Positions 2,237-59,401 of a stretch of DNA of 64,000 nucleotides are shown one piece after another. A program made the translations under genes and the position numbers. This DNA is from Zygnema cylindricum. Taxonomy: Eukaryota; Streptophyta; Zygnematophyceae; Zygnematales; Zygnemataceae. The notes beneath the pieces were generated by a model. It made no database searches. It saw only the letters and a program-made list of their open reading frames with translations, and was not told the origin of the DNA. Within the stretch, counting starts at the first letter, position 1. Each line of letters opens with the position of its first letter. The stretch spans positions 174,782 to 238,781 of the forward strand of contig JBBHKE010002698.1 of assembly GCA_037447655.1 (NCBI GenBank), given 5' to 3'.

Positions 2237-2261
2237 TCCATGTCATGCCGCATCGTGTCGG

Positions 2262-5179: not shown

Positions 5180-7891
5180 ATGCCCACGGATTGGGATAAC
5201 TTGCGTTATCAATCCGGATCTACCCGCGGCGGGACATTTTTCCGTCCACCGCAGTTAGATCTTTCTAGTTTCTCCGAGTCTACGGACGCACCTGTTTCGG
5301 TTGCGGCCCTTAGATCTCCGTCAGTTCGGTCAGTACTGACCACAGTCTCATCATTATCCCGAGTTTTCTCTAGGTCATCCCTAGATAGCACTGAAAGAGA
5401 CTTTTCAGAAGAAATCTTTTCCCATCCTCTCACATTTCAGTTTTCGGTCGATCCAACTTTGGAACCGCTAGTGCATTCTTCTTTTGACGACATGGCTTCC
5501 TCTTCAGAGGGGGGCATGGGGAAAATGCAATTTTGCTTTTCAGGGATGAAGGATACCATGTCTTTATCCCATTTCCGTATGCTTTATAATACCGAAATGC
5601 GTGATTTGGCATTTCGCTATCAAGATCGATTTGATCTTCGTGTGGCATTTTCTCTTCTTGGCCGGTACCTTAGAGGTTCGGCCCTTACATTATATTCCCG
5701 CAAGTATGATGCTATACTCGCGATGACGGAATTTTCCCCTCCTTTTGCTGGTACACCCGAGGTCATAGGTCAAGCGGATATTCCACTCCAGGCCGCTTTT
5801 CCCGAGGTCTTAGATGCCCAAGGTGTTGTCCTAATTCCCGCAGTCCCAGAAATTCCTCGCCAATATGTTGTGGCCGCTCGTGCTGCTGTCCCAGCACGAC
5901 CAGGAATGACTATTCCGTTGCGGGATCCACTATCTGTTATGTTCGATTTCTTAGAAACCGAGTATCGGATGCAAAACCCCGATCAGGTGAAAGAATTGAT
6001 GAATTTCACGCGTAAACCAGGAGAAACCGCGCCTGCTTTACGTGCTCGCATGGAGACTCTGCGAGAAGCTTTACCGGACTTAATGTCCGATGCGGAGGCT
6101 GTTCAAAAATTTGTTGGACAGTTTCCAGATGAATCGAAACGTTTTATACAAAGTCATCTCACTCAGACTTACGGTCTGAAATTTACATTTGATCAAGCCG
6201 CTCAATATGCGGTAGAATATGAGATGCAATCATGTTGGTGGGAAGCTCATGATCGTTCGGAAGTCGCTTCCCCACTTTCTCCACGTAGTAGCCCATGGCC
6301 CAACAATAGGCCTCCAAAGACGCCGGCCATGGGAAATCCGCCATTTAATTCCGGAGACCGATTGTGTTTCCGATGTGGAAACACGGGGCACGATGCCCGC
6401 ATGTGCCCGGATAAGTCCGCCACATGCACCCATTGCAACCAAAAGGGACATTATGTCCACCGTTGCCATGTTAAGGATCCTAATTATTCCTATCAGAATC
6501 AGATTCAGAACGGTGGAATTCCTGCCCGTTCTGCCAAGCCAGTCACTCCTCCTACCGAGACAGAGAAAGAGGCGACTCCGCCTAGGATCTCTCGAAGAGA
6601 GAGAGAAAAGGCCGAGTTACAAGTCATGATGGCCGCCATGATGAAAGAGCAATTTGCTGCCTTCATGGCCGAGATGAAACCCCAATTCACGGGGATGGCA
6701 AGGACAGTCGTCCACACGCCATCTTTGGTTGGTCGAATCCTCCGGGATTCCACTGTCCAACAACGGGCAACCACTTTTGATAAGGGATCCCCTGATCATA
6801 ATCGGGACGGTAAATTACAGAATTCCCGTATTCCACTTTCTTTCGAGAAAGAATCTCTCTCTCCTCTACCAGATACAGCTTCCTCCATTGTAGCTGAAGC
6901 TCTCACTATTCTGGATAGTACCATACATGATGCACATCGAGTCAAGGAACGACTAAGCATCCTTTCTGCCATGATTGATGAGGCCCCCAATGTCTCTCCC
7001 TTTCTTAATGAGGTTCCCAAAGCCTCTCCCCTTGTTGACGAGTTCGCTGCAGCCGCCGCTTTGAGGGCGTTGCAACTGAACCGTAGTCTTTCTGTTATTC
7101 AGCCGGTTACCGCAGATGAGCGCCGTGACCTTGATCCTCACATTAGTTTCCTGGACAATTCTCGAATGTCCTTCTCCGTTAATGGTGTTTCTCCTTCTCT
7201 CCCTCTTATGGATACCGGAGCCAAACCCGTGATCCTTGGATCCGGATTTGCGCTCAAGCTTGGTCTGACAGCAGACAAGCTCCAAGCCACGGCTACTCGG
7301 CTTCTTACTTCAGCCGGTACCACGGAGTCGGTGCTTGGGATTACCAAGGACCCGCTTGTCTTTCGGTTTCACAACGGAACCGAGAGTGAGTCCGTAGAGG
7401 TTTCGGTCCGAGCATTGGTCACCAAATCCAACGACTACGAATGCTTAGTGGGACAGGATGTTATCTTCCGAATCGGTGGGGGAGTAGATATGCATGATCA
7501 GACCTTCTCATACCGTCCATCTAATTTTCCGGGACGCAAAATCAGCCTCCCTCTTGTCACTGCTCGCAAGCCGTTGCCCACTATGGCACATTTGGCTTCC
7601 ACTCTCCCTGCGTTTTCCAGTAACGAACTTCGGGAAGACAATGGCGACTCGTTTTTCACAAAACGGATCCATACTGTTGACACCGAAGTCTTTCCACACA
7701 TTCTAAATGTGGTGGATAGTGATACTAATGGGATGTTGAGTTTGCAGAGTGTTTATGCATGTATAGGTGGTGATCAAGGGTTCCACATGGAGTGCCTCTC
7801 TCCTCCATTATCTTTCAACCCGGCTGACCATTGCTGCCTTGATTTCTGTTCCAGGCCTTCAGCTGTCTTGACCAGCTCCTCTACAGATTAA
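5180..7891 (+). CDS. Gag-protease polyprotein with PHD remnant (903 aa, intact)
   Basis: An uninterrupted frame. Residues 1-100 are Ser-rich. About 105-370 is a gag capsid-like region containing RMETLREALPD and FVGQFPDE. Two CCHC zinc knuckles follow (CFRCGNTGH at about 396 and CTHCNQKGH at about 415), then a Lys/Glu-rich coiled linker, then an aspartic protease with LPLMDTGAKPV (catalytic Asp about 678) and a DYECLVGQ strand. After about residue 815 it jumps to sequence matching the C-terminus of the relative's integrase (VDSDTNGML) and a half PHD finger (GFHMECLSPPL). DNMT, RT, RNase H and the integrase core are deleted. The start was chosen because the relative at 45656 begins with the same M-P-x-D-W-D-N-L motif. 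It presumably forms particles and matures them; polymerase and integrase would have to come from elsewhere. Confidence 0.85.
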   Translation: MPTDWDNLRYQSGSTRGGTFFRPPQLDLSSFSESTDAPVSVAALRSPSVRSVLTTVSSLSRVFSRSSLDSTERDFSEEIFSHPLTFQFSVDPTLEPLVHSSFDDMASSSEGGMGKMQFCFSGMKDTMSLSHFRMLYNTEMRDLAFRYQDRFDLRVAFSLLGRYLRGSALTLYSRKYDAILAMTEFSPPFAGTPEVIGQADIPLQAAFPEVLDAQGVVLIPAVPEIPRQYVVAARAAVPARPGMTIPLRDPLSVMFDFLETEYRMQNPDQVKELMNFTRKPGETAPALRARMETLREALPDLMSDAEAVQKFVGQFPDESKRFIQSHLTQTYGLKFTFDQAAQYAVEYEMQSCWWEAHDRSEVASPLSPRSSPWPNNRPPKTPAMGNPPFNSGDRLCFRCGNTGHDARMCPDKSATCTHCNQKGHYVHRCHVKDPNYSYQNQIQNGGIPARSAKPVTPPTETEKEATPPRISRREREKAELQVMMAAMMKEQFAAFMAEMKPQFTGMARTVVHTPSLVGRILRDSTVQQRATTFDKGSPDHNRDGKLQNSRIPLSFEKESLSPLPDTASSIVAEALTILDSTIHDAHRVKERLSILSAMIDEAPNVSPFLNEVPKASPLVDEFAAAAALRALQLNRSLSVIQPVTADERRDLDPHISFLDNSRMSFSVNGVSPSLPLMDTGAKPVILGSGFALKLGLTADKLQATATRLLTSAGTTESVLGITKDPLVFRFHNGTESESVEVSVRALVTKSNDYECLVGQDVIFRIGGGVDMHDQTFSYRPSNFPGRKISLPLVTARKPLPTMAHLASTLPAFSSNELREDNGDSFFTKRIHTVDTEVFPHILNVVDSDTNGMLSLQSVYACIGGDQGFHMECLSPPLSFNPADHCCLDFCSRPSAVLTSSSTD

Positions 7892-7908
7892 GGAGCTGGG
7901 GGGGGGAA
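7889..7908 (+). promoter_or_regulatory. Stop codon and G-rich polypurine tract
   Basis: The TAA stop of gag-protease is followed by GGAGCTGGGGGGGGGAA, a run of nine G. In LTR retroelements such a tract primes plus-strand DNA. A very similar stop-plus-G8 motif lies at 49305-49322 in the DNMT element. Confidence 0.6.
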
Positions 7909-8099
7909 TTATTGGGTCCACTTCACTCTAGGGGAGTATTCTTCCCCTTCTCTCTTTGGGTCATTTTCACTTTTGGTCCTTCTCATGGTGTATATATTTT
8001 TTGACTTTTCATATTTATTTCCGTTGTTGTGTATGTTTGTGAGCATGACTTTGCTGGTTGTGATGCATGTTTGCTTGCTTGCCTCTCATGCACGACAGC

Positions 8100-9597
8100 T
8101 GTCATGCCGCATCGTGTCGGTTGCCGGCACGCATGATATTCGACGTGCGCGCACGATATAATGCACGCACGCGCAATATTTGTCACGCGCGCGCAGTACT
8201 TCTCATGCACGCGTGGTATTTCTCACGCACGCGCGATATTTCTCATGCACGCGCGGTATTTCTTACGCCCGCGCATTATTTCTCACGCACGCGCGGTATT
8301 TTGCACGCACGCGCAGTATTTCTCAAGCACGCGCGGTATTTCGCATGCACACACGGTTTAAGGCACGCGCGCGCGGTTTATGTATGCACGCGCGATTTCA
8401 TGCATGCACGCAAGATTTTATGCACGCACGTCTAACTTTTCGTTCGTACGTGCGAAATTTCGCGCCAGTTCATTTATTTATATGTTTGTTGAACCGTACT
8501 AATTTCGTGCGTGGTATTATTTCGTTTCGTGTGCAGGTACACTTCAATTATTTCGTGCGATACCTTTCATTTCGTGCTAGACTTTTTATTTCGTGCGGTA
8601 TGCTTCGATTCGTGCGTATGCACGCGATTTGGAAGAATGTACGTGGAGAATCGTTTGGAGGCGAATCGCGATTCTCGAACAACGCTTCGATACACTATTT
8701 ATTTATTTATTTAAGTCGCGAACCCATGTAGGTTCGCGCACATGTAGTTAGGGAGGGTTTTTACCCTTGGATGGTGGATTTTGTCAAGCGTACGGCAGAC
8801 GATGTTGGCCGCCTATTGGCCTACATCTTTAGTAGTTTCATGCATGTAAAGTAGACTAGACGTAGGCTAATTTCGCTTAGGCCTAGTGTAGCTCTTACTT
8901 AGCCTAATTCTCAAACTTAGAGAATTTAGCTTTTGGACAAGAATTTTCTCTTGGCAGCGGAGCTTTTCTCTTGCTCTCTCTCTCACCGATTGCCCACGTG
9001 TCTTTCTTCTCCTTGCTAGCTAGCTGTAGAGGCTAGATAGGTTAAGAATATTTCACCTTTTATTTCTGCCCACGTTTTTAATCCACACGGCCTAAGGCCA
9101 CGTCCGGAAGGTTTCCCTCCAAAGTTTGTCTTTTGGTGGAAGTGTGGAATTGGAGATCGTGGGGGAGCACATCTGTACCTTGCTGTGCCTTCCTCGGGCA
9201 GCTTGACGGTTTGGTTGTGTGTTTGTATCTTGTTTGTATTTCGGTTGGCTTGAAAAGAGTGTTGTTTTGATCGGATTTGGATTTTCCCTTGTGCCGGTTG
9301 GAATATTTCTTGCTTTGCTGTCGTAACGGGATAACTCTTGTAGGGAATGTGATAAAGACCAGAGAGCTTGACCAGCTCCTCTACAGATTAAGGAGCTGGG
9401 GGGGGGAATTATTGGGTCCACTTCACTCTAGGGGAGTATTCTTCCCCTTCTCTCTTTGGGTCATTTTCACTTTTGGTCCTTCTCATGGTGTATATATTTT
9501 TTGACTTTTCATATTTATTTCCGTTGTTGTGTATGTTTGTGAGCATGACTTTGCTGGTTGTGATGCATGTTTGCTTGCTTGCCTCTCATGCACGACA
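8100..9597 (+). mobile_element. TGTC/GACA-family element, right copy: 1.5-kb derivative without ORF
   Basis: It begins TGTCATGCCGC at 8100. It is nearly identical to 2241-3508 for 1268 bp, then joins directly at 9367/9368 to the equivalent of 7868-8097 and ends GCACGACA at 9597. About 4.36 kb (3509-7867), including all coding sequence, is missing. The border shares a single C and has no GT-AG, so splicing does not explain it. Only two bases (GC) separate it from the left copy. TCCA follows at 9598. Confidence 0.85.
8121..8440 (+). repeat. Second copy of the 20-bp CG-rich array
   Basis: The same array as at 2262-2580, differing by a few bases (for example AGTACTTCT at 8196 against AGTATTTCT). 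Confidence 0.9.
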
Positions 9598-9671
9598 TCC
9601 ATCTCTCCCCTTTAAGTTCTCCAAAAACTATTTTCTCGACAACATTGTTGTCCCCATTGAGTTAATAAGAA

Positions 9672-21072: not shown

Positions 21073-21073
21073 A

Positions 21074-34713: not shown

Positions 34714-34777
34714 GGCAAACTTTGGCCAGTCATAACTATCAATTTACTTGACCATTTTCAGTGATTCTTTTTGTTGC

Positions 34778-42889: not shown

Positions 42890-43351
42890 GATGATTAATT
42901 TTCAATGTCCAACATGCGTACATTTTATATGTGTGAATGACATAGGTACTACGCTACTTGTGTTTCACGTATGTGTGAACTACGTAATCAAATCAACGGC
43001 CGTAATTCACTACGTGACATACACTCCAATTCCGCGACACATAAACTTGCCATACACTACAAGTAGACGACTACGTTTTGCTTAACTTCACGTCTACGCA
43101 AATTATGTTTGACGTCTACGCAAATCATATTTGACGTCTAATCAATTGTACTTCAACTCTATAGAACTTAGTTGAATTCAGTTGAATTCTCTCTCACCCG
43201 GCTTTGACTAACGTTGACTTCTGGTCCTTAACAGAAAATGGACACATAAATCTTAACACCCCCTCTCTGAGTCATTTTCTGGTGACTATCAATTGTCCAC
43301 ACTAAATAGGACCAACTCCTGTGAGCAAATTACAAAATCAAATTTTAAACC
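42890..43351 (-). mobile_element. Antisense copia: 3' LTR (partial borders), polypurine tract and 3' end
   Basis: On the minus strand AGAGAGGGGG (43259-43268) abuts TGTTAAGA (43251-43258), a polypurine tract/LTR start. The LTR extends left; its far border is not resolved. 43089-43142 holds tandem copies of about 25 bp of the type TTTGACGTCTACGCAAAT. The short internal part 43269-43351 is cut by the DNMT element and continues at 57342, where minus-strand RNase H and RT follow. Confidence 0.65.
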
Positions 43352-45655
43352 TGTCATGCCGCATCACGTCGGTGCATCTAATATATTTAATTACATGGAA
43401 ATGGTCCTTCAAAAAGGACGCCACACTAATTTAAACGTGGGTATGTTTTGGTGACTACAGGGCAATACAAATTTCGGTCAAACGCCATGAAACCCGTGGA
43501 CGATTTGGATTCTGTATATGATGTCGACAGTGCCAAAATTCCACTAACCGATTAAATTTGCTGGCTGGAATTTTCGCGAACAAGTTTGAGTTGCCGCCTA
43601 TACAATTGGTGACGCAAAATGTCAAACGATGAGATTCACGTGTACCACCTTGGACGCGAACGCGCATCAACGGCCGCGAAGGACGCAGAAGAATGGACGA
43701 ACGAGATTTAAACTGCGCACGACGACGCGATTGGTCCATTTTAAGTCGTGGACCCTTGGAGGTCTCACGCATTCACATGTAGCATAAGAAGGATTTTTAT
43801 CCGTAGGCTGTAGATTTTGTAACATAAGGCAGACGATTCTGGTCGCTTATTGGCCAGAATCCAAACTAGGCGCAAACAACTACATAGAATGCATGTATTC
43901 GCAGTAGGTTAGACGCTCAGCTGTAAACTTCGTACTTAGCGAATTATTGGAGAATTCTGCCCTCACAATTTCAAGAGCACACGAATTCTCATTTTGGAAG
44001 ATTTGACCTAAACTTTGAGGATTTTTCTTGTGAAATTGTCAGGATAGTTTTAGTGACTATTTTTTTGGTCATTAAGCATTATGCTGCTTAGCTCTTACTT
44101 TCTTTCTCTGTAAACATGCCCTACAAATTAATCTACGCGGCTCACGGGGAAACCTAACCGGTTTCCCTTCACTTCTTCTCTCGTCCTATCAAGTGGATTG
44201 TTGCTCTGCCTTCATTTTCAGGCTGTTGCTGAACCTTGGATTGTGATTGGACAGTTTTGGGTTTACTGGGTGATAGTGGATTAGGGTTGGCTTTTCTCGT
44301 ATGTTTTGTGTGTGACTAAATCTGGTTATCTCAGATTTGCTCGCAGTTTGCTACATTTTCAGTTTTTGTGTTGTGATATTGAGTTAAATCTTTATTTATT
44401 GAACTCCTGTAAAGAATATAAACTGACCAAGGAGCCTTGTGGCTATCCGTTGGCTTAATATTCATGTGCTCTTGAAATTGTAGTTTTTCTATTGTTTTGC
44501 AATTTGAAATTGTGTGTTTTCCAATTATTCTACAATTTGAAATTGCTCGTACTTTCTATTTCGTGTAACTTGGTATTGTTAGTCTTGCTCTATTTTTTGC
44601 GATTCGACATTGTCAGTGTGATTCTATTTTTCACAATTTTATATTGACAGTTTTTCTATGTTCTCTGCAATTTAAAATTGTCAGTTTTTCTCTATTTCGT
44701 TCAATTTAGATTTTACATTTCTTTTGTGTGTTTGTGCGATCTGATAATAAATCTTGCATTTTGGAATATTCTTCTAAGTTGTACTTCTTTATTTGAAATA
44801 AAAAATAAACTAAAGAAAAAAAAAATCTAAAACTAGTTTTGCAATTTTAATTATTGTTTGCTTGTTTGTTCACAAAATCATCTCTTTGGCCAATTTTTCG
44901 GCCAAAATTACACTACACTAATTTGGGTATTTGGGGTATTTCTTTATAGCTCCTTGTTGATCGTAGGCATCGATCTTTCACATTGTGACATACCTCACCA
45001 AGGAGTGGAGATAGTGGAGCTGATTCGTTATTGGGAGCTCTGCAAAACTCCGGTTGGATCAAACAACAACAGTTCACCCTTAACAATCACCACATTGCTA
45101 GAGTGGTTTGTAAGTTCACGATGCCTTGCGGGTGCAGGCGCGTGTCAGGATAGTTGTTGATCGTTTAGAGGGTACGTGAGTGGATTGGGTCCACCTGGAC
45201 CTAATTGTATTGAGCATTTGCACTGTCCACGCTTTCCATGCTTGCCATCTGGCCGTGAGTGGCCTTGAGTTTTTCTTGTTGTCTGTTTGGCGTGGAAATT
45301 TATTGTTACGGCCTTGTGTTTTTCTTGTTGTCTCTTTGGCGTGGAATATTATTGTTTAATTTGGCCGTTAGTGGCCTTGGATAGAACTATTTTCCACCTG
45401 TGGAGCTTTAGATTTGCACCTCCAGGTGCTTGTTTATCAATTTTATGCCTTTATAGATCTGGCCTTTTGGCCTTGCCCACTCGTTTGCAGGGTAGAGGTT
45501 TCGGTAAAAGCGACCTCTTGACTAGATCTGGCCATCATGGTCTTGTTAGAAACTCTTTGAGATTGTTGCCTACGTATGTGGTATGGTTTAGCATTTGTTG
45601 CACCTCGTATAAGGCGTATCCATTAGCGGATTAGTTTGTTATCTCAGTCATTTTT
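43352..45655 (+). other. Leader of the DNMT element
   Basis: Non-coding, conserved in blocks with 2241-5179. Lacks the 20-bp CG array. Contains the phrase TTGTAAGTTCACGATGCC then GGGTGCAG, a candidate intron shared with the left-hand relative, and repeated AATTTGAAATTGT-like words (44480-44700). Confidence 0.65.
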
Positions 45656-48304
45656 ATGCCCAGTGATTGGGATAATCTTCACTACTCATACGGATCTACA
45701 CGTAGTGGTGGAACTTTCCGTTTATCAAATTTTGATCAATCGAATTTATCAAATTTTGTTCTTTTGACATAAGTCTTTTAATCGAATCTATAGCGACTTC
45801 TACTCGTTCAGATTTAACCAATGTCTCATCTTTTTCATTTATTTTTTCCACGCTATGTGTGGAAGAGGTTGATAATGAAAGGGAACCCGATTCAAATTCT
45901 CTTTCTTTTTGGTCTCCGTTAGCACCAATTCAGGCTTGAAATTTGACTAACTCGTCCCTTTTTATGGCCTCCACATCGGAGGATACTCCTGGTAAACTTC
46001 AATTTTGCTTTTCCACAAGGAAGGATATCATGAGTTTATCTCGTTTTCGAATGTTATTCGACACTGAAATGCGAGATCTAGCTTTCATTTATCAAGATAG
46101 ATTTGACATGCGTGCACTTTCTCCCTTCTCGGGCGTTACCTTCGCGAGTCCGCCCTTACCTTATATTCCCGCAAGTATGATTGCATACTTGCGATGACTA
46201 TATATTCTCCACAGTTTGCTGGTACGCTCGAGGTAATAGGTCAAGCAGAAATTCCTTATCAAGCTGCTATTTCCGAGGTCTTAGATGCGCTTGCCAATGT
46301 TTTTTACCCTGCTATGGCGGATGTTCCCCACCAATATGCCATTCCAGCCCGAGTCGCCGTCCTGGCACGACCCGAGATGACTATTCCGTTACGAGACCCT
46401 CTCACCATACTGTTTAATTTGTTAAAAGAGGAGTATCGCATGCAAAATCTTGACAAAGTTAAGGAATTAATTAATTTTGAGCAAAACCGGGCGAAACTGC
46501 CTCGCTTTATGAGCCCGTATGTAGACCTTACGGGAAGTGTTACCCTATTTAACATCAGATACCGAAGCTGTCTAGAAGTTTGTTGGATAGTTTCATTTCC
46601 AGTCAAAGAAATTTATTCAAAGCCATCTTACCCAAACATACGGTCTCAAATTTACGTTCGACCATGCAGCACTATAAGCTGTAGAATTCGAGATGACAAA
46701 TTGTTAATAGGAGGCCCACAATAGACCAAAAGCCGCTCAAAAAAAACCTAACCCTTTTAATTCCCCAAATCCTCGTAACTTGGGGCCAAATAATCGGCCC
46801 CCAAGGGTCCTAACCATGGGACCCCACCAAATCAACCATCCAATCGGATTTGTTTCCGATGTGGCAAGACTAGGCATGAAGCTCGGATGTGCCTGGATAA
46901 ATCTGCAAACTGTACACATTACAAATAGACCGACCACTTTGTGCATTGTTGTCACATCAAAAACTTTGATTTTTCATATCAAAATCAGATTCGAAATGGT
47001 GGCATAGCGGCTATATCTGCCAAAGTAGTCCAACCAGTTAAAGAGCTAGAAAAAAACTCTCCACCAAAAGTGTCTCGGAGAGAAAAAAAGAGAGAGGAAA
47101 TGCAAACTCAAATGGCCGCTATGATCAAAGACAAGTTTGCAGCCCTTATGGCTCAAATGAAACCTCCGACTCACCTAATTGGATGGCTCGTACAGTTGTC
47201 CACCTTCCCACGTTAGCAGGTCGAGTTTTACGAGATTCAACCATTCAAAAGCGGGCTACCACGTTTGACAAGGGGATAGTTAATCACAATCGTGAGGGTA
47301 AACACTCTAGCACACGTCTACCATTATCATTTTCCAAAGATACCGCAACCAATTTGCCCAAAACAGCTTCCACCATCACGGCGAAAGCACTCAATATTCT
47401 TGATTGCTTCATTCAGCACAGCCATAGGGCTAAGAAAAGATTATGCATTTTGTCTACTATGATTTCCGATCCACCCAACCTAAAACCTACGGTCACATCC
47501 ATCCCATTTGCAGCATTACAGGCTTTACAAATGAAACGTAATCCTAACGCTCTAAGGCCTATCTCTACCGACGAGCGTAGTCGACTTAACCCACACATCA
47601 CTTTTCTAGATAATGGGAAGGGTGCATTTTTAGTCAATGGTGTCATACCGTCATTACCACTTATGGACACTGGTGCGAAACGAGTTATTTTGGGGTCATC
47701 TTTTGCATTGAAACTAGGTCTGACAGCTGATAAACTTCAGTCCACTTCCACACGTTTACTTACCTCAACGGGAACAACTAAACCAATTTTGGGCATTACG
47801 AAGGATCCACTCTATTTTAGGTTTGAAAATGGTACAAAATCTGATTTTTTAGAAGTTCGTGCTCACGCATTGGTCACCAAGTGTAGTGATTACGAATGTT
47901 TAGTGGGGCAAAATGTGATTTTCAGAGTAAGAGGCGGCGTGGATATGTACGATCAGACTTTTTCATATCGTCCTACCAATTACCCGGAAAAGAAAATTTG
48001 TTTTCCTCTAATTTCAGCACGCCAACCCATACCCATTATGGCTCACGCAACCCAATCCGTCCCTGCTTATTCCGAAAATTTGGTGGGATTTGAAAATTTT
48101 CAATCTCTTCTCGCAGAGGAAATTTTGCCCGACAGTCCTTCTTTGCATGACCTTTATGATAATTCAGGTTTTATTATTTATTCTCGCAAGTTTGTTCACA
48201 TCTACAAACACACCCTTCAGATTCTTTTATCGCGGGTTTCACCTTTTCCTCTTATTTCTGTAGATCCTTCCACTTTTCTTCCCAATAATTGGAAACCAAT
48301 TTAG
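45656..48304 (+). pseudogene. Gag and protease of the DNMT element, broken
   Basis: Starts MPSDWDNLHYSYGS, parallel to the intact 903-residue protein at 5180. Pieces follow in different frames: LQFCFSTRKDIMSLSRFRMLFDTEMRDLAF (45982 on), FAGTLEVIGQAEIPYQAA (46213 on), a degraded knuckle near 46850, then an open stretch 47183-48304. That stretch has ARTVVHLPTLAGRVLRDST and the protease LPLMDTGAKRVILGSSFALKLGL, with SDYECLVGQNVIF. The protease block is intact. The frame ends with a TAG at 48302, in frame with the methyltransferase that follows, so a single gag-protease-DNMT polyprotein is likely. Confidence 0.85.
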
Positions 48305-49307
48305 GTCAAACCTCATCAAGATGGTCTAGTCATTTTAGACCTATTTGCAGGCATAGGTACCCCTCTACTCTCATGCCTTCGCAACGAATTACTTATCAAA
48401 CACTACTACTCAGTTGACATTGACCCTTTAGCTCAGAAAGCCCAAACACATCACTCTAATCTATTAACGGACAATATCCAAATCTTTTCCATAAATCTGC
48501 CATTGCTGACATGCATACAGCCTTACCTCAAGATATTCGTTAGATATTCAACCAATACCTTCTCGATGTGGAACAAATTGATCGTCTCTTTGCCGGTTGG
48601 GAGTGTCAATGAATGTCACGAGCAGGCAAAGGTCTCGGTTTAGCTGACCCTCGCACTAAATTATTTTTTGAATTACTTCGTATCATGCATTTTTTGCAAT
48701 CTTTCGATTGTCCATTGGGATATATTTTGGAAAACGTGGCAGCCTATAACGATCCTCGACCTATAGTATTAGCTGATTACAAGCGGATAAAAACATTAAT
48801 TGGTCCTCCTCTTATCATTGATGCCGCTCGTCACGGGTCCTTAGCTCATCGGGATTGATCTAAAAGGACCAATATATTGATATTAGACGCCTTAGAGAAG
48901 GAAATCTTTCTATCAAACCTCCTTTTACGGAACTTCAGACTGCACTTCTTCCTTTTCACAAAGTCCAAACCTGTCTGCAGCATGATCACCCACCGAATTA
49001 CAACATTAACCTCTCAAGCCAACCACTCAAAGTTCTCCCCACTCTAGTGTCTTATCCACACTCTCACGCTTTCTCTAGTGATGGGCCCGGCCTGCTTAAA
49101 AATATTCACACAGGCGGCCTAGATGAACCTACAGCCACAGAACGCGAATACCTTATGCATTTCCTTCCCAACACTACGGCTACCCATGGTCTCACAGAAC
49201 GACAATGCTACATCCTTTTAGGTCGTGTCATGGACCCTCAATCCCTCTCATTTGTCTTAGGCCTCGGATTTGGAGCAGGTCGTTACGCACAAACACATCC
49301 ATCTTAA
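48305..49307 (+). pseudogene. C5 cytosine DNA methyltransferase domain inside the retroelement
   Basis: Directly after the protease, same frame: VILDLFAGIGTPLLSCL (motif I; Asp codon 48338) and YYSVDIDPLAQKAQTHH (motif II). After a shift: RLFAGWECQ (motif IV; catalytic Cys 48604-48606), a TGA, then SRAGKGLGLADPRTKLFFELLRI. Next come GYILENVAAYNDPRP (motif VI, ENV at 48730) and PPLIIDAARHGSLAHRD (motif VIII). After another shift: LDEPTATEREYLMHFLP and LTERQCYILLGRVMDPQSLSFVLG (motifs IX-X). The usual PCQ is ECQ. About 330 codons with a small target recognition region, DNMT3/phage-like in size. Such enzymes put methyl groups on cytosine in DNA. Three or more lesions inactivate it. Confidence 0.85.
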
Positions 49308-49322
49308 CCAGTTGGGGGGGGA
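49305..49322 (+). promoter_or_regulatory. Internal G8 tract after the DNMT stop
   Basis: TAACCAGTTGGGGGGGGATT closely resembles TAAGGAGCTGGGGGGGGGAA at the 3' end of the family copy (7889). It could be a central polypurine tract or a trace of a former 3' end. Confidence 0.4.
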
Positions 49323-49482
49323 TTTCAACACCAATTTCTAAACACATTGTCACCCTTAGAGGGACACCTTCTCAACTTTTCCTCTTCCCATCCTCTATTA
49401 AACCTTCTGCTGAGGTCACAATCTATGATTTCCTGAACCCTAGCCACATGTCATAGTCTATTCCGGCATGTACTGCTGCCCA

Positions 49483-49542
49483 ATCTGCTCCCTTTAGTCA
49501 TATGTCAACACCATCTGCTCCCTCTAGTCATATGTCAACACC
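49483..49542 (+). repeat. 30-bp tandem duplication
   Basis: ATCTGCTCCCTTTAGTCATA.. occurs at 49483 and 49513 with one difference, in the DNMT-RT linker. Confidence 0.85.
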
Positions 49543-49639
49543 TCTTTACTGGACTGTAGCCTTTCCTACTCGCAGCTGGCACCATTAGACAAACTGCTTA
49601 TAGGAAACACTGGTTGTTTACTCATTAGGTCAGTCACTT

Positions 49640-51177
49640 ATCACAAATGAACAGCTAGCTTTTGCACAAGCAATGGAAATAATGATGATTAAAGGTTCGG
49701 AATCTCCTAATTGGATATTTGGCTCTAATCTCTCTCAATTTGAACATGATTTACAGTACGAAGTGATTTTGCGGAATATCGACGCTTTTGTTTTCTCTAT
49801 CAATGATCTTGGTTGCCATACCACCTATAAAATATTTATAGAGCTGGAAGACGATCGTCCTATTTTGAAGTCAAAAAACCACTTATCCGAAACTTAATGG
49901 GAATTAGTAGACCTGCGCTGCACTGAATTGGAGGAAGTTGGCCTCATTTATCGGTTGGATTGTACTTTTGCTGCACACACTCTCATGCCTAGGAAAAAAG
50001 ATGCTAAAGGATATTTTACCGAACACGGGATGTGCGCCGATTACCGTGAGCTCACTGCTTACACAATACAAGATTGATATCTAATGCTATTGGCTGAAGA
50101 GATATATGATCATGTAGGAGGCGCTAAATATTTCAGTATTCTGGATTTACGATAAGGCTTTAACCAGATTGAAATAGAGGAGAAGGATAGGCATAAAACC
50201 GCCTTTTAGGGTAGTGATGGTAGTTGGGAGTGGTTTGTCATGCCTTTTAGACGTAAGAACGCCCCCACATTTTTTCAGAAAGTAATGGATTCAATTTTAG
50301 GTGGTTGCAAATTTGCACAATGTTATATTGATGATTTGATTATCGCCTCTGCCAAAATTGAAGATCACGTAGCTCATATCGAATGGCTCCTAACTGAACT
50401 GGAAATGGTCGGATTAAAATGTCATCCAGCTAAATATACTTCCGGGTCCGTGGGTGTGCCTTACCTTGGACATTTCATTTCCTCCGAGGGAATCACACCA
50501 CTTGAAGCAAAAACCGAGGCTATCAGCAAATTGCCAACCCCTGTTTATCTCATGAGTCTTCGAGCCTTCCTAGGATTAGCCAATTATTGTTGCAGGTTTG
50601 TTCCGAGTTTCAACACTATCGCTTCACTATTGAACGATTTGCTCAAGAAAAAAGTTCCTTTCGTTTGGGGACCTCATCAGATTTCAGCGTTCCAGAAGTT
50701 GAAAGATGCCCTCTCTAGTGCTCTAATTCTTCGACCTCCTAATCACAAATTACCTTTTTGCCTACAAACAAACTTTGGAAAGCGTGGCATTGCGACCATC
50801 TTAACTCAGCGTGAACTAACAGGAGAAAAATATGTGGTCCCTTACTCAAACAGGAGTAATAATCGTGCAGAGTCAAATTACAGTAGTTATGAAGGAGAAT
50901 GTCTGGTAGCAGTTTGGGATATTATACACTTTCGTCACTACCTTTACGATAAATCGTTTTCCTTTCTAACCGACCATCAACCTTTACATTGGCTGATGAC
51001 AAACGATAAACTGTCAGGAAAATTAGTGCGATGGTCATTAATATTACAAGAATATGATGTGGAAATAATTCACCGTCCGAGATTATTAGACTTAATGCTG
51101 ACGACATTTCCCGATATCCTTTGCCAAGTACCACAGACAATTGAGTTCGGCAGGATTTTGATGACGACTTACCTACT
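49640..51177 (+). pseudogene. Reverse transcriptase and RNase H of the DNMT element
   Basis: Pieces in one frame with several stops: MIKGSESPNWIFGSNLSQF, then LEEVGLIYRLDCTFAAHTLMPRKKDAKG, CADYRELTA, GAKYFSILDLR and FVMPFRRKNAPTFFQKVMDSILGG. The catalytic YIDD is at 50324-50335, followed by YLGHFISSEGI and FLGLANYCCRFVPSFNTIA. RNase H starts FCLQTNFGKRGIATIL: the first catalytic Asp is Asn. YEGECLVAVWD and FLTDHQPLHWLM are kept. The family is Ty3/gypsy. Stops occur at 49895, 50078, 50153 and 50207, among others. Confidence 0.9.
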
Positions 51178-51732
51178 ATGTCCTCAAGATTTCATATCAC
51201 ACATTCTTTAGCCTCGCTGCACAACTCTCGTTTTGCCCAAGATCCATGGCGAGACGTTGCACTAATTTTTTTCCTCTCCTCACAAACCTTCCGACCAGGC
51301 ACTACATCCGAGGAGGAGGAACGAGTAAAGAAAAGGGCTAAAAATTATCTTTTGTTAGGTGGATCGCTAGTTCCATTGTTAGCAGAAAGTAATCAGGGAC
51401 ACGTGATTCGCCCGACTGAACGCCTCTTGCTGATTGAACAAATTCACATAGACTTGGGTCACTATGGGACTAAGCGCATCTTAAGCTTGTTGCAGACACG
51501 CTATTGGTGGTCTGGGATGCAATCTGATGTTGCTGCGGTAATGCACAAGTGTGCAATATGTGATTGTCAACGTACAACTTTTAGCAACCGGTAGACTAAC
51601 CTCCAACAATTACCCATCAAGGGGTTATTTTACAGCTGGTCGTGTGATTTGGCAGGACCCTTCCCGATATCTCGGAGGGGGAGACAATATATAATGATCA
51701 TGATTGAAAATGGGTTGCAATACCACACAAAA
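51178..51732 (+). pseudogene. Integrase of the DNMT element, N-terminal part
   Basis: HHCC zinc domain: IHIDLGHYGTKRILSLLQTRYWWSGM, then CAICDC. After a TAG at 51592 the core starts SCDLAGPFPISRRG (first Asp) and reaches NGLQYHTK, where the antisense TR-GAG interrupts at 51732. It continues at 56156. Confidence 0.85.
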
Positions 51733-52939
51733 TGAAACTCTGAGACCTCCATTGGCCCTCAGAGTATGCAGATCCAAAAAAAGCTAATCTAGATAGTGCC
51801 GACTCCAAGTTGATATAAACCCAAGTGACTGACCCCTTGATAGTCACAACCCCAATATAGATTCACCCCTGTGAAATAACACTTTCTGTGTGCTCAGTTT
51901 CACCACAGAATGCAAAGTTAGAATATGAGATTTGGACACATTCACCCACTTTGACTTTCCCTTAGAAATGCAGCCAACCTTGCAGACAAAAACACTGACC
52001 GACTACACTGTAGCCTGGACTCCCCTGAGTCCGCAGCTAAATGAATCACTGAAAATGGTCAAGTAAATTGATTGTTATGGCTGGCCAAAGTTTGCCATTT
52101 ATACAGGGTGCTCTCTGGGAGAGGCAGCTGCCTACCCAAAATTTTCTAAGTCCTATTCCCTCTCTAAAACTCTATCTACTGAAGTACGGCACCAATCAAA
52201 TTACTGTGTCGTAGAGAAAAGTATAGGTGTCGGTGTACTTTATGTACGGCCATTATACGACATGGCCAAAATGTCGACACGTGTCAAATCAGGATTAGTT
52301 CTTGTGATCTCCGGAATTCGCGTAGTCCAATGATATCACGCCACGTGTCATTTGACGTGGCAAAGACCGTAAAACGCCAAAAATGCCTTTTACGTGATCG
52401 GGGCGCCTATCGTGGCCGTCCGATCAAAACCGGCTATAATCATAGCTGCTGAAATTTGACGCGCGGTATTTGTTTCGCTATCGAAACAAATGCGCGGTAT
52501 TTGTTTCGCTATCGAAACAAATGCGCAGTATTCGTTCTGTCCTCATACCGTACGTTGTACTAAATTAAATTGTATCTATGTACTAAGTATCTATTAGCCG
52601 TTTAAATGGATTAATCCACATATGACGATTTATATATTTATCAAACCCTACATATCGTAATATCTGTTCTAGACATAACGGCTAGAGCTAACGGCTAATG
52701 CTGACTGACGGAAGGCAGGTACCAAGATCAATTCCTGGGTCCGTCAACTAACTTTTGGTAAGTCTACCTAATTTACCTCCTGTCTTCTCTAGAGAGCCTA
52801 GGCAGCCATGGCTCTAGCTCCCTATCTAGCCTTCAGTGACTACAACAAGTGTGGGGGCTTGGAGAGGGGAGTTAGAGGCAAACCGCCTCAGCTCTTTTTC
52901 TATCCTAATACAGACCTAGAAAATACTTAAATATCAACA
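51733..52939 (-). repeat. Antisense TR-GAG 3' LTR
   Basis: Runs (minus strand) from TGTTGATATTTAAG to GAGTTTCA. Contains two copies of a perfect hairpin (52468-52491 and 52499-52522) and the conserved U3 stem-loop (52706-52746). Confidence 0.9.
52468..52522. repeat. Two perfect hairpins in the LTR
   Basis: ATTTGTTTCG and CGAAACAAAT flank CTAT: a 10-bp stem with a 4-base loop, present twice 31 bp apart with GCGCGGT between. The other LTR of this element has the same pair (from about 55684). Confidence 0.9.
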
Positions 52940-54963
52940 CTCCCCTTATTTTCTAGTCTATTTTTCTTTCAACTTCCACAAACAAGTAAACAAAAACCCC
53001 CTCCCCTTTTTCCTTTTATTTTTCCTTTTTCCTTTTCCTTTCATAAAACTTAAGTATTTAACACATTGCATTAAATGAGCTGAAATGATAATTGTATCAC
53101 ACATTTTATTTAACATCCCATTTTTCTTAAATCGGAGCAAAGATTTTATCCACTTCATCACTCTTTCATCCACACACAAACCGATTTCCCTCTTTGGATC
53201 CAAACAGCCAGCCCCATTTCCAATCTGCAACATACACCTAGATACATACACCTAGATGCAAACCCTTTTACAGGCACATCTTCACAAGTGACGTCACACC
53301 AAGTAATAATGTCAAATCCATCCACCCCCAAATATTCCCAAAAACCGCTAGTCCCCACTAAGTTCCTCATAAGATCTACATCTTTCGTACTCATATTTTT
53401 ATCCATGATAATTACCCCATCTTCTGAACTTTTCTCACTCTCTCCCATGGAATTCTTTCCACTATCACTTTCTAATTTAATTCCCAATAAATATTTATTC
53501 TCCCCTAAACCTTTAATCAAATATTTATCTTCTCCCTTATCCTTTAAAACCTCTTCGAGTTTCACTTCTCCCCTTTCCTCGGAATCCGTTGAAGTCTCAC
53601 TTTCCGACGAGTTTTCTGTTTCCCTATTATCTATAAAATTATCCTGATTAATTTTATCTTTCCCGTTTTCACTTATGGATCCTAGAACTGAATTTCTCAT
53701 TTCTAAGTCATACACTCGACACTCCTCGACATCCTCAAGTACCTCCTCTCTCTTTACTTCCCTTACACCTCCAAAAGCACACTGTTGCCTTCGTGCAATT
53801 ACTGTGTGCTTTTCTCTCTTCCCCATACTACTAATCCAGAGAAGCTCTAAAATATCTTCATCCTCTTTCTCCTCTTCCCCTTCTTCCTCCTCATCCACAT
53901 TCCAACTTCTAAGTTTTTCCAAACAAGGGCATTCCTCCATATAATGACTCGGTTCCCTACAAAAGAAGCAATCCCCCTTTTTCAAAACTCCCATTTCTTT
54001 ACCTCTCCCTCTCTTTCCACCAAAGTTCCGATAAGGTTTACCTTTGTCTTTTTTTCTCTCATCATGCTTCCGCTCGTCACCACCGTTCCTCTCATCACGC
54101 TTCCGCTTGTCACCACCGTTCCTCTCATCACGCTTCTGCCAATCACCACCAGCTGAAAATGCATTGACCTTGTCCTTTCCCCTACGAAACTCCAAAGTGC
54201 TTTCCCTCACAAGAATTATCCCCATGGTAAAGCTCCAAGTCCATGAGGAGCCATCCATTGCCTACATACGACAAATGATGTTTTCGTACTCATCTGGGAG
54301 TTTCATAAGTAGTGTATTAATCTTACTCTCCTCAGATTCTACATATCCCGCACTAGTAAGCTCAATGTATAATGCAGCAATATCATTGCAAAACTATATC
54401 ATGCTACCGCCTTTATAAACGTAGGCATCTATTTCCTGTTTTACTAATTGCTGCCTCTGAAAAGTTTCACTCTTATAAATCTGAATTAGTGCTTCCCATA
54501 TCTTTGAAGCTTTGGTTAGACTTAAAAGGGTGATAGCAATCGACTTAGACACATATCTAAGTATGAGATATTTTGCTATAGTGTTTTTGTATTCCCATAT
54601 TTTTGTGTCATTTTCTTCAGTTTTAATCCCTACATGTGGTACCATAGCTGAGAGCCTAGCTCCCCTCAACATAGGTGTCCCTTTTTCCTTTTCCCCTATT
54701 TCCCCATCTACGAAAAGAATCTTCCCTTCACCTTCCGTTGCATCTGAACTCCGGTTGATATTCTGGGCAGCCTCAGATGAATCTCCAGAGTAAGCTCCTC
54801 CAAAGCCAGGTGGCGGACATCTCACTTGTCCCGAAACAATTCCCCATAAGTTCTTCTCAAAAAGCAATCCCGCCATTGTAAACTCCCAATAAGTGAAGTT
54901 TGTTCCATTGAACATAGGCACCCTAGATGGTGGGCCCATAACCTGAAACTCTGAGACCTCCAT
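52940..54963 (-). pseudogene. Antisense Gag with acidic C-terminal domain, broken
   Basis: Starts MEVSEFQVMGPPSRVPMF inside the LTR at 54963. An open block runs to 54394, then a stop after GGSMI and further stops to 54259. It resumes at 54258 with MDGSSWTWSFTMGIILVRE, the knuckle CFFCREPSHYMEECP (the usual Gly before His is Ser) and the long acidic tail to 53158, where it shifts into a frame ending KRKNKRKKGRG near 52970. An extra ERNGGDKRKRD repeat enlarges the linker. The tail is clearly homologous to that of the intact copy at 35063. Confidence 0.88.
54929..54943 (-). promoter_or_regulatory. Half-tRNA primer site of the antisense TR-GAG
   Basis: On the minus strand GGTTATGGGCCCACC directly follows the LTR, 15 bases complementary to the initiator tRNA-Met anticodon arm. 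Confidence 0.8.
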
Positions 54964-56155
54964 TGGCCCTCAGAGTATGCAGATCCAAAAAAAGTTAATC
55001 TAGATAGTGCCGACTCCAAGTTGATATAAACCCAAGTGACTGACCCCTTGATAGTCACAACCCCAATATAGATTCACCCCTGTGAAATAACACTTTCTGT
55101 GTGCTCAGTTTCACCACAGAATGCAAAGTTAGAATATGAGATTTGGACACATTCACCCACTTTGACTTTCCCTTAGAATTGCAGCCAACCTTCTTGACAG
55201 AAACACTGACCGACTACACCCCTGTGTAGCTTGGACTCCCTTGAGTCCGCAGCAAAATGAATCACTGAAAATGGTCAAGTAAATTGATTGTTATGGCTGG
55301 CCAAAGTTTGCCATTTATACAGGGTGCTATTTGGGAGAGGGAGCAACCTACCCAAAATTTTCTAAGTCCTATTCCCTCTCTAAAACTCTATCTACTAAAG
55401 TATGGCACCAATCAAATTACGATGTCGTACTGAAAAGTACAGGTGTCGGTGTACTTTATGTACGGCCATTGTACGACATGGCCAAAATGTCGACACGTGT
55501 CAAATCAGGATTAGTTCTTGTGATCTCCGGAATTCCTGTAGTCCAATGTTATCAAGCCACGTGTCATTTGACGTGGCAAAGACCGTAAAGCGCCAAAAAT
55601 GCCTTTTCTATGATCGCGGCGCCTATCGTGGCCGTCCGATCAAAACCGGCTATAATCCTAGCCCCTGAAATTCGACGCGCGGTATTTGTTTCGCTATCGA
55701 AACAAATGCGCGGTATTTGTTTCGCTATCGAAACAAATGCGCAGTATCCGTTCTGTCCCCATACCGTACTTCGTACTAAATTAAACTGTATCTATGTACT
55801 AAGTATCTATTAGCCGTTTAAACAGATTAATAAACATATGACGATTTATATATTTATCAAACCCTACATATCATAATATCTGTTCTAGACATAACGGCTA
55901 GAGCTAACGGCTAATGCTGATTGATGGACGGCAGGTACCAAGATCAATTCTTGGGTCCGTCAACTAACTTTTGGTAAGTCTACCTAATTTACCTCCTGTC
56001 TTCTCTAGAGAGCCTAGGCAGCCATGGCTCTAGCTCCCTATCCAGCCTTCAGTGACTACAACAAGTGTGGGGGCTTGGAGAGGGGAGTTAGAGGCAGACT
56101 ACCTCAACTCTTTTTCTATCCTAATACAGACCTAGAAAACACTCAAATATCAACA
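54944..56155 (-). repeat. Antisense TR-GAG 5' LTR
   Basis: 1212 bp; recognisably the same as 51733-52939 with scattered substitutions and small indels. Confidence 0.9.
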
Positions 56156-56420
56156 AAAAACAGCTAAGCTCACCACCGTTGCTTTTAAAGAACATGTCTT
56201 TATGAGATTCAACGCTCCAGCTGAAGTCCTCACAGATCAAGGGATTGAATTCCGCGGAGATTTCCAAGAAATGCTAGATGACGCTATCACAGACCATCGT
56301 CGAACAAGCCGCTATCATCCACAGGCTGATGGATTGGCGAAACGTGCAGTTCAGAACTTCAAGTAGGCATTAAGCAAGCATTGCTTGGAGGTACATATAA
56401 TAGTGTGGGACGAGTCACTG
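56156..56420 (+). pseudogene. Integrase of the DNMT element, core after the insertion
   Basis: KTAKLTTVAFKEHVFMRF, then LTDQGIEFRGDFQEML (second catalytic Asp) and RTSRYHPQADGLAKRAVQNF. The block normally ends GxAER; the catalytic Glu is Lys (56340-56342). A TAG follows VQNFK at 56364. Confidence 0.85.
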
Positions 56421-56940
56421 GGCTATATTCCCATGGGGTATCGAATGTCGGTAATGGGGAGTCTTGTTTATTTCAGTTTGTACTATGTCTTATCTGGGCG
56501 TCAACCCTTGTTGGCTAGGAATATCTAGAAAGTTGCAAGCTTTCCGCTTCCCTTACTGTCTAACAGGGTTTTTTTTGGAAAAACTCACTAAACGGGCGCT
56601 GCTTTTCGCTCGAGAGATGCTTATGGCCTTTGACAACCTGGAGATCGCCTAACACTAGAATTCTTTGCGCTTTTCCATGAGTGCAGCGGCAGCTACTTGC
56701 CCCAGCAGAAGCCTTATCGTATGGGAGATTATGTCTACTTACGGCGCTAATCCTTAGATACCTTGGACACAGATGGTTCACCTCAGATTCTCCAGATAAT
56801 CATAGTAGACACGAATGGCATGCTAAGACCTCAAGGAGCGGTTACGGGAACCTTTCGGGAGCATTTGAAGAACTATTTTCCACGTTATTTACCGGATCTC
56901 TCAGAGGACATGGACCCTATGCGTATGCCTATCACTAAGG
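56421..56940 (+). pseudogene. Integrase C-terminal region of the DNMT element
   Basis: YIPMGYRMSVMGSLVYFSLYYVLSGRQPLLARNI, then LAPAEALSYG with frame breaks, then DTDGSPQILQIIIVDTNGMLRPQGAVTGTFREHLKNYFPRYLPDL. The last block (DTNGML) is the segment to which the deleted relative at 5180 joins its protease. Confidence 0.7.
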
Positions 56941-56945
56941 CTACA

Positions 56946-57150
56946 AAATGCACACCTTGCAATCGAGCCGACGGAGAAACATCAATGCTTCCATGGGACC
57001 ATTGCAACAAGGGATTTCACATGGAGTGTTTGGTTCCTCCGTTAACAACAGTACCGGACGGTCATTGGTTTTGTCACGGCTACCGAAGTTACCAGTCGTA
57101 TTGTCCAGCTCTTCGGCAAGCTAAAGAGCTAGGAGGGGATAATAAACTGA
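56946..57150 (+). pseudogene. PHD finger at the end of the polyprotein
   Basis: KCTPCNRADGETSMLPWDHC, then NKGFHMECLVPPLTTVPDGHWFC, the PHD pattern Cys4-His-Cys3 with CLxPPLxxxPxGxWxC. The third metal ligand (Cys in the usual LLCDxC) is Trp and the last Cys is Tyr, so this copy cannot bind two zincs normally. PHD fingers read histone H3 tails. Here one would follow the integrase and may direct targeting. The family copy at 5180 keeps the second half (GFHMECLSPPL). Confidence 0.8.
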
Positions 57151-57341
57151 ACCTCTTAGCTTCCTCTCTCACCCTACCTTTAACATTTCTTATGATATAT
57201 TTATTTGGTGCTTGGGGCTTGTAAATATTTATTTTTACTTGTTTTCTGGGATGTTCATGACTTTCTCGCTTATTTCTTTATCCTTTATCATTCAGCTGGT
57301 TGTGTTGCATGTTTATCATATTTTTTGTCACATGCACGACA
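57151..57341 (+). other. 3' tail of the DNMT element
   Basis: Parallels 7910-8097: phrases such as CATGACTTT, GGTTGTG.TGCATGTTT and the terminal CATGCACGACA. A weaker purine tract (GAGCTAGGAGGGGATAA) lies at 57127-57143. Confidence 0.7.
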
Positions 57342-59401
57342 AACCATTCTTTCCAATTTGTTCTCTCCAACTGAGAAGTCTTCTTGAACACATGAAAATC
57401 CAACCGGTAGTGCTCCTCCTTATGTCGAGGTAGCCGTTTGCATGACATCTCTCAAAGGCCATCTCTCTCAAGTTTAATCTTTCGACACCTAGGACTTTGT
57501 TTTTTACCGTATATGGATTTGTATAGTTTACACACCATGTGTTCTTTTCCTGGTTATATCAAGCCTTCCATGTAGAATTTTTCCTCTAAATCCACAGTTA
57601 GGTATGCAGTTTTGATATCTAGTTGATGCATCTGCATACCCTCTAATGCCCCTAAGGCTATTGAACTTATGAGACTATTAAACTTCACTACTGGTGAGAA
57701 AGTCTTAGTATAATCAACCCCCTTTTTTTGTGAATACCCGTTAGCTACCAACCTCGCTTTATATCTTTCCACTGATCCATCTGATTTCCTCTTAATCTTA
57801 AAGACCCATTTACACCCCACAATGTTTTTCTCTTCAGGGCGTTCTATTAAGGTCCAAGTTTTGTTTTTGATTAGTGATTCATATTCTAATTCTATTGCCT
57901 CTTTCCATTTCTGAAAATTAGAACTCTCTAAAGCTTCATGAAATGTTTCTGATTCCCCCTCTACCGCCATTAAACAATAAGCTAAACCCACATCTCCTGT
58001 TTCTTCAATGAGCTGTTTTGGTTTAGAACGTATCCGATTAGAAACTCTTTGAGGAGTGTCAATCTCGATTGTTGAATCGAATTCAGAGAGGTTGTAACTT
58101 GTGAAGCTTGTGGCGTTGGTAACTTCTCCACTAGTAAATAATGAAAGGTTGATGTCTTATCGGGGATGACGGAAGTCTAAATTGGAATGGAAATTAGAGT
58201 GGATGACAAAGGCTCCACTTGATGTTCTATCCCTGGAGAACCTGGTTTTGATGGAGACCCACTTTCTAATTCTTCTTGATTATTAAAGGCAACAGTGACA
58301 TTCTGTGGTTCTTCATACCGAGGATCAAAATTATCTATCACATCTGAACTACTTTCCTTCCCTTCATCCACAGTCACATCTCGACTAACATGAACTTTCT
58401 GTGTAACTGGGTTCTAAATTTTGTAAGCTTTTCTATTTGTGTCATAACCTACAAAGACACCAGTCTAACTCTTCTTGTCAAATTTCTTTCTTTTTTGTGT
58501 TAGGATGTGAACAAAGGTTTTACTTCCAAAAACTTTAAAATGTTTAACATTTGGTCTAAAGCCTAACCAAGTTTCTTTAGGTGTAATATCTTTCAGAGAA
58601 GTACTAGGAGATTAAATTTTCAAATAAACTGCAGTAAAAATAGCTTCAGCCCATAGGTTTTGATTAAGTTTTGCACTATGTACTAAACAACGTGCAATTT
58701 CAACTAAAGTCCGGTTAAGTGTTTTCTTACATTCCGTTTTGTTGCGGACTACAAGCTACTATAAATTCTTGCAGTATCCCCAAGTTTTACAATTTTCCTT
58801 AAAAGCATTCGAGGTATATTCCCCCCATTATCTGACCTTCAAATCTAGATCCGCTCTCCTGCCTGATTTTCTACCATAGTTTTCAACTCTCTACATTTCT
58901 CAAGGAATTCACCCCTGGATTTCATAAAATACACCTATACTTTTCTAGTGCACTCATCTGTAAATGTAATGAAAAATCTAGAACCTCCAAGACTTACGAT
59001 GTGAGTACCGCTCAAATGAGAATGAATAAGCTCTAACTTCCTTCTATGTTTTGGTTTATCATTTTTATAAAAAGGAAGACTTCTTTGCTTACCTTGAGCA
59101 CATCCTTCACACATCTTAAGGTTGTCTTTGGCATTAACGTCCTCAAGTCCTCTAACTATCTTCTTTTCAATAAGTCGTTTGAGGTTTTGCTCTCCAGATG
59201 ACCAAATCGATGATGCCACTGCCTTAAAGTCTTTTCTTCTTTGTTGAAATTCATCTGTACATCTTCATCATCCAAACGTAAAGCCAAAAGATTTCCTTCT
59301 GTCAAACTCGTGTTCATCTTCGGCACATTTCCACTATCAAGAGATCCAAGGCCACTTCCCACCATGTACAGGCTCCAGCGTACGGAGAAGGGGGAGTACA
59401 A
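57342..59401 (-). pseudogene. Antisense copia pol (pre-integrase, integrase, RT, RNase H remnant)
   Basis: Reading the minus strand from 59401: LRQWHHRFGHLESKTSNDLL (pre-integrase), CEGCAQGKQRSLPF and LIHSHLSGTHIVSLGGSRFF (integrase). After a decayed stretch comes the C-terminal signature KVHVSRDVTVDEGKE (about 58350-58395). RT follows (57991-57475): WKEAIELEYESLIKNKTW, CKWVFKIKRKSDGSVERYKARLVANGYSQKKGVDY, HQLDIKTAYLTVDLEEKFY and YKSIYGKKQSPR. A deletion then removes the catalytic RT box, and RNase H text GYLDIRRSTTGWIF appears at about 57360-57435. It stops at the DNMT element and continues at 43351. Confidence 0.85.

Follow-up and report, generated by a model that had tools for sequence, protein, structure and literature searches.

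A Ty3/gypsy-type lineage of Zygnema cylindricum with permuted proviruses and probable integration ends inside the long terminal repeat

We analysed a 64,000-bp stretch (the window) of contig JBBHKE010002698.1 from Zygnema cylindricum, which holds two related Ty3/gypsy-type elements of unusual architecture, element 1 (43352–57341) and element 2 (2241–9597). Element 1 started with TGTCATGCCGCATC and finished with CACATGCACGACA, as read from the window sequence, and was flanked by AACC on either side. Self-comparison of the window revealed no terminal direct repeat in it, and no inverted repeat of at least 20 bp linking both ends was found; by eye, the ends shared an inverted match of about 8 bp with one mismatch. 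In its open reading frames (ORFs), reverse transcriptase (RT)/RNase H, integrase zinc-binding and PHD domains all scored above the Pfam cut-offs, in agreement with an earlier, sequence-only reading of this DNA, and a protease match scored below. The RT region matched RVT_1 and RT_RNaseH, and a PDB search with RT-RNase H returned 4ol8 (RT/RNase H, 2.8e-38) and 7q5b (Ty3-G Gag-Pol, 5.1e-38), the next match being at 1.1e-23. The DDE integrase with its H2C2 domain (51145–51594) was placed downstream of RNase H, as in the relatives L147, where Integrase_H2C2 and rve lie within one ORF, and L148, which showed RNase H, H2C2 and a weak rve. The 13,990 bp of element 1 include a nested 4.4-kb element (51733–56155), which splits the integrase and has a copia-type gag and 1.2-kb long terminal repeats (LTRs, 95%) of its own.

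The DNA methyltransferase (DNMT) named by the sequence-only reading was recognised from motifs read by eye, and its assignment to the DNMT3 family rests on L147 (PF00145, 2.7e-7; top PDB match DNMT3A, 3.4e-6). Pfam did not name it in 48305–48643, the sole piece of the window tested, and PDB searches with two methyltransferase pieces returned nothing. Reading frames were broken in all four DNMT-family copies examined (element 1, L131, L147 and L148).

Element 2 had the same kind of ends, with TCCA on either side. It had been taken for an independent copy with the same ends; this held for ends and flanks, but the element was not repeat-free. Its first segment, A1 (2241–3508), recurred at 8100–9367 with 5 differences in 1268 positions, and a segment B (7867–8097) recurred at 9367–9597 with 100% identity over 231 bp; only 2 bp separated 8097 from 8100. 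Element 2 is a complete permuted copy of the order A1–int–B1–GC–A2|B2 (int, internal region), and element 1 is an A–int–B form carrying the nested copia-type element. In the long ORF of element 2 (903 aa), zinc-knuckle and protease domains were the only noteworthy matches, both scoring below the Pfam cut-off, with no RT or integrase match in Pfam; by self-comparison, the gag/protease region of element 1 was similar to it at the DNA level. Segment A of element 2 also contained GC-rich tandem repeats of about 20 bp (2291–2571 and 8157–8430).

Genome searches covered the source assembly (352.8 Mb, 2689 contigs), in which the first 201 bp of element 1 had at least 41 matches (40 of 118 candidates scored). 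For element-2-type ends, 60 of the 116 left and 100 of the 219 right ones were paired when lying 0.8–20 kb apart on one contig and strand. Identical 4-bp flanks were observed in 11 of the 19 resulting pairs versus 3 of 342 cross-pairs; flanks matched at 3 bp in one pair, and at 5 or 6 bp in none. Fetched ends yielded 14 further elements, seven of them with exact duplications (elements 1 and 2, L141, L161, C179, C971 and C566), two with a match at three of four positions (L129 and L227 (= C695)) and five with no match (L130 (TGGA/TGTT), L134, L148, L151 and L223 (= C335)); L160 (= C655) had no matching 4-bp flank. Pooled over all elements, 18 of 33 showed exact 4-bp duplications. Among solo-sized pairs (1.4–1.6 kb), flanks matched in C510, C772 and C883 and did not in C720, and the solo L141 matched as well. 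As judged from these flank matches, true integration ends bound whole A1–int–B1–NN–A2|B2 units as well as solo-sized A|B units. The termini and duplications claimed for elements 1 and 2 were thus borne out.

Textbook LTR elements integrate a linear complementary DNA (cDNA) by its LTR ends. For the present elements, the B end CATGCACGACA lay beside the A start TGTCATGCC at 199 exact sites when spacers of 0–12 bp were allowed (control 0), and a search for spacers of exactly 2 bp likewise returned 199, so that every site has a 2-bp spacer (NN). Among the 100 sites listed, this spacer was GC in 65, AC in 17, GT in 11 and AT in 2, with five others occurring once each. The site is a near-palindrome, GCACGACA-GC-TGTCATGC. 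Taking every fifth of the 100 listed sites gave 20 junctions with flanks; of the 40 sites left among the first 50, the upstream flank was inspected for 39. A G-rich polypurine tract was present 140–300 nt upstream of B-NN-A, at the start of B, in 54 of these 59 junctions by a loose rule that 424 of 2000 random window stretches also passed; among the 54, L205 looks unrelated. The remaining five comprised L173, with internal context and no G-run, L181, with A|B upstream, and L156, L164 and L191, with other contexts. Behind A2, B was repeated in 11 of the 20 junctions with flanks. In DNMT-family copies, A stopped at the start of the primer site and B2 started at the end of the polypurine tract; L130 and L133 are examples of trimmed copies that depart from this. 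Since B-NN-A fills the interval between the polypurine tract and the primer site, this placement makes it the LTR, with the integration ends inside its U3. The provirus is not bounded by LTR ends, as TGTC and GACA lie inside U3. LTRs seem to be missing because the provirus is permuted, with its integration point inside U3. Element 1 has no terminal direct repeat, but the proposed absence of LTRs is not supported for the family. A majority of copies with long direct repeats outside the ends, which the sequence-only reading had named as evidence against itself, was not found; the repeated segments (A1/A2 and B1/B2) are internal to the ends. The unusual architecture it had announced stands, in the form of a permuted provirus.

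The primer site was complementary to an arm situated 435–550 nt upstream in A. In 11 of 12 units the stem exceeded all 100 shuffles; the first L147 unit failed to beat them and L131 and L140 did so narrowly. Pairing was kept in elements 1 and 2 despite their different sequences, and priming may be self-priming of the Tf1/Sushi type. A candidate tRNA primer site near 43606, seen by eye, was dropped after the self-complementary arms had been found.

The A|B joints were searched for with patterns that required an intact U3 start and allowed up to 30 nt, larger losses falling outside the counts. In element-2-type families, 71 matches were obtained (control 0), of which 61 lay within about 3 nt of the U5 end and U3 start; among the other ten, four retained the polypurine G-run, three retained bases from the primer-site side and three were trimmed by at least 7 nt on the U5 side. 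All 17 matches in the DNMT family sat at the boundary, where no more than about 2 bases varied (control 0). These positions mark A|B as a joint between two LTRs, with a scatter as in cDNA end joining or two-LTR circles. The scatter was seen among close relatives, which suggests that joints are made anew. Splicing was discarded as their origin, the junction bases in element 2 not being GT-AG. At G000:C2652:39653-40791, three A|B joints followed one another on the same strand at intervals of about 550 bp, forming a tandem array.

We consider it likely that these are Ty3/gypsy LTR retrotransposons with integrase recognition ends inside the LTR, and that their permuted provirus stems from end-joined cDNA cut at the internal palindrome. 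Transcription would begin close to the self-primer arm of A1 and end in A2, which would place R at both ends of the RNA; this RNA would be copied, self-primed, into a linear LTR–int–LTR cDNA. The ends of this cDNA would be joined, before or after cutting, as in a two-LTR circle. One staggered integrase cut at the palindrome ACA|GC|TGT could create the two recessed CA-3′ ends in a single step, and the opened molecule would be inserted with loss of the 2-bp spacer. Retroviral ends after 3′ processing have a recessed CA and 2-nt 5′ overhangs, and the same form is expected from a staggered cut of the palindrome. Palindromic LTR–LTR junctions were described, in the parts of these reports consulted, as being cut by foamy virus and HIV-1 integrases (PMC1180852, PMC1905944). 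Whether this DDE integrase normally acts on end-joined circular cDNA rather than on linear cDNA, opening the circle by one staggered cut at the internal palindrome, is a proposal on which we are evenly divided. Solo A|B units may have arisen by recombination of A1 with A2, and A–int–B forms such as element 1 by recombination of B1 with B2 or by cutting of a one-LTR molecule. The pair L141/L142 was not used as proof of A1 × A2 recombination, since their flanks matched over only about 155 bp.

Several observations weigh against this reading of the permuted provirus, which was drawn from genome sequence. An exact duplication was lacking in 8 of the 19 end pairs, and B2 was not seen within 1.75 kb in 9 of the 20 junctions with flanks. 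The 71 joints are partly non-independent, three being in the C2652 array and those of C173 and C1618 being identical. Joints off the usual place were found in L130, L133, the second unit of L143 and element 2; the latter, about 26 nt short on the U5 side and 39 nt long on the U3 side with the polypurine tract retained, escaped the pattern. L143 (G000:C1527) reads B-NN-A|B-NN-A|B, two consecutive A|B units, and in L170 (L147+L170, G000:C1979:528884-541000) and L155 the second A was followed by primer site and internal region, not by B; L147+L170 and L155 are tandem units or recombinants. Whereas A1 and A2 of L131 were nearest relatives (91.1%, next 87.7%), A1 of L148 was closer to A2 of L147 (93.4%) than to the A2 of the same copy (90.2%), and the first A of L143 (Aa) was closer to L138 (93.4%) than to the second, Ab (92.2%), so that some copies may be chimeric or recombined. 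Finally, a two-LTR circle has two B-NN-A sites, and free choice between them should yield the orders A|B-NN-A-int-B and A-int-B-NN-A|B equally often; L181 was the sole candidate for the former among the 59 junctions. Earlier completion of the 5′ LTR than of the 3′ LTR could, as a guess, bias the choice of site and put A|B on the right.

Concerning element 1 by itself, it seems rather probable that a former A2|B2 was lost by B1 × B2 recombination. Its outer ends and duplication would survive such a deletion, and its counterparts from A1 × A2, the solo A|B copies, were found, in some cases with duplications. The same form would, however, result from a single cut in a one-LTR molecule or from cuts at both sites of a linear cDNA. 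With A2|B2 lost in this way, element 1 would be uninformative on single-unit integration, and compatible with integration ends inside the LTR.

A route without any circle is less probable, and we regard it as a minority view worth keeping: integrase would cut a linear cDNA at its 5′ LTR palindrome, hold the two new ends and insert them, and host repair would join the outer ends to form A|B in the chromosome. The one-sided order would be explained if the 5′ LTR site were used first, and host end joining would account for the joint scatter equally well, but the broken target would need repair every time, and precedent favours integrases that cut circle palindromes. Replication of the DIRS/PAT type, with A-int-B-A-B copied as such and A|B inherited through reverse transcription, would predict the identical repeat order and explain the right-hand position of A|B, and the Klebsormidium nitens relative was described with a DIRS-type repeat structure in the part of the source consulted (PMC5890265). 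We nevertheless think it very improbable, for the joints vary from one related copy to another and coincide with the borders of polypurine tract and primer site, the integrase is of DDE type and duplications of 4 bp occur. Hardly credible is the LTR-less retroelement or retroelement/Ginger-like transposon intermediate of the sequence-only reading, for which element 1 alone, without direct repeats, and the TGT...ACA ends and 4-bp duplications reminiscent of Ginger1 (PMC2836005, consulted in part) would speak, since the family has permuted LTRs lying between polypurine tract and primer site and has kept its RT.

The repeat order has been known once before, from KnitGypsy-Dnmt3 of K. nitens, with gypsy domains, a DNMT3 in Pol and, according to a figure legend, DIRS-type repeats (PMC5890265). 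It resembles the present elements in its gypsy Pol with DNMT3 and its A-coding-B-A-B repeats, a likeness by description and not by sequence; within the portion of that account consulted, integration ends, spacer, joint scatter, duplications, primer site, non-autonomous families and mechanism were not found, and the word PHD is absent from its main text (PMC5890265). What is new here is a variant of that architecture with a testable mechanism. In the open PMC literature searched, no other permuted gypsy element of this kind was found described. Self-priming Ty3/gypsy elements of the Tf1/Sushi type share the RT–RNase H–integrase order, polypurine tract, primer site at the U5 end, self-complementary primer and TGT...ACA ends with those of Z. 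cylindricum, in which, however, integration ends lie inside U3 and the provirus is permuted. The A-int-B-A-B order is also that of the split-direct-repeat elements DIRS, PAT and Ngaro, which differ by a tyrosine recombinase in place of the DDE integrase, 4-bp duplications and variable A|B joints seen here; no tyrosine recombinase match was found in the ORFs scanned. DIRS/PAT elements are not known to make a target duplication. Circles of the IS3 family have short spacers between their abutted ends. IS3-family minicircles (PMC3299598) and foamy virus two-LTR circles (PMC1180852), as far as these sources were consulted, likewise present abutted ends as DDE substrate, which would be the case here too; unlike in the foamy virus circle, the cut site would lie inside the LTR and not at the LTR–LTR joint (PMC1180852). 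With Ginger, as described in the part of the source consulted, our elements share a gypsy-like integrase, TGTNR ends, 4-bp duplications as in Ginger1 and the PHD finger of some Gingers, but they have RT and LTRs and lack the long terminal inverted repeats (about 40–270 bp in Ginger1) (PMC2836005).

With the LTR–LTR joint preserved in many copies, the genome amounts to a fossil archive of circle-like joints, in which the ability of integrases to use circles can be tested on natural material. If circular cDNA is indeed the normal substrate, the old circle-integration model would hold for one natural lineage, and retroviral-type integrases would be tied to circle insertion of the IS3 type. The LTR-less look of element 1 suggests that tools expecting terminal LTRs would set wrong bounds for such elements.

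Closterium sp. NIES-68 (43% identity) and the liverwort Calypogeia fissa (48%) were the named sources of the better RT relatives. The RT search of viral contigs gave no relative, and 14-mer matches there (at least 120 stretches) were as expected for any 14-mer and not used. Just upstream of B-NN-A, L191 (G000:C271:86260-86660) and L164 (G000:C1039) had foreign or inverted B-end sequence and are probably chimeras.

Table 1. Features of elements 1 and 2 in window coordinates
Element	Feature	Position	Strand	Remark
1	Left 4-bp target duplication AACC	43348..43351
1	Segment A (inner U3, R and U5)	43352..44459	+	opens with integration end TGTCATGC
1	Self-primer arm within A	43965..43986	+	complementary to primer-binding site
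1	Primer-binding site	44460..44481	+	begins at end of A
1	gag and aspartic protease region, decayed	46107..48304	+	ORF pieces 46107-46724 (no match) and 47042-48304 (protease below cut-off)
1	DNMT3-type methyltransferase pieces, two frames	48305..48855	+	motifs by eye; family call from L147
1	Reverse transcriptase and RNase H	50210..51211	+	Pfam, PDB search
1	Integrase zinc-binding domain and start of DDE core	51145..51732	+	Pfam; core by eye
1	Nested copia-type gag-only LTR element	51733..56155	-	foreign to element 1
1	Remainder of integrase core, decayed	56156..56750	+	by eye; compare single ORF of L147
1	ORF with PHD finger	56751..57224	+	PF00628, 8.8e-8
1	Polypurine tract	57123..57139	+
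1	Segment B (outer U3)	57140..57341	+	ends GCACGACA
1	Right target duplication AACC	57342..57345
2	Left target duplication TCCA	2237..2240
2	A1, as far as recurring in A2	2241..3508	+	LTR-sense A extends to ~3534
2	Self-primer arm	3069..3085	+
2	Primer-binding site	3533..3549	+
2	Open gag-protease ORF, 903 aa	5180..7891	+
2	Polypurine tract	7890..7906	+
2	B1	7907..8097	+	B1/B2 repeat extends back to 7867/7868
2	2-bp spacer GC in B-NN-A palindrome	8098..8099	+
2	A2	8100..9367	+
2	A|B joint	9367..9368	+
2	B2	9368..9597	+	ends GCACGACA
2	Right target duplication TCCA	9598..9601

Other LTR elements were present in the window. Two ordinary ones served as controls, 33890–38217 (LTRs 99.5%, duplication ACGCG) and 11705–16857 (737-bp LTRs, 98%, duplication GCGCG), the latter inserted in a repeat of which a related, uninterrupted copy lies at 29223–29669. 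A family with a copia-type gag comprised 33890–38217, the element nested in element 1 and a fragment at 61782–62927, with no pol match in its scanned ORFs. A chromodomain gypsy element at 18925–26161 had LTR-like end repeats of 84% identity and ORFs for protease, RT, integrase and chromodomain.

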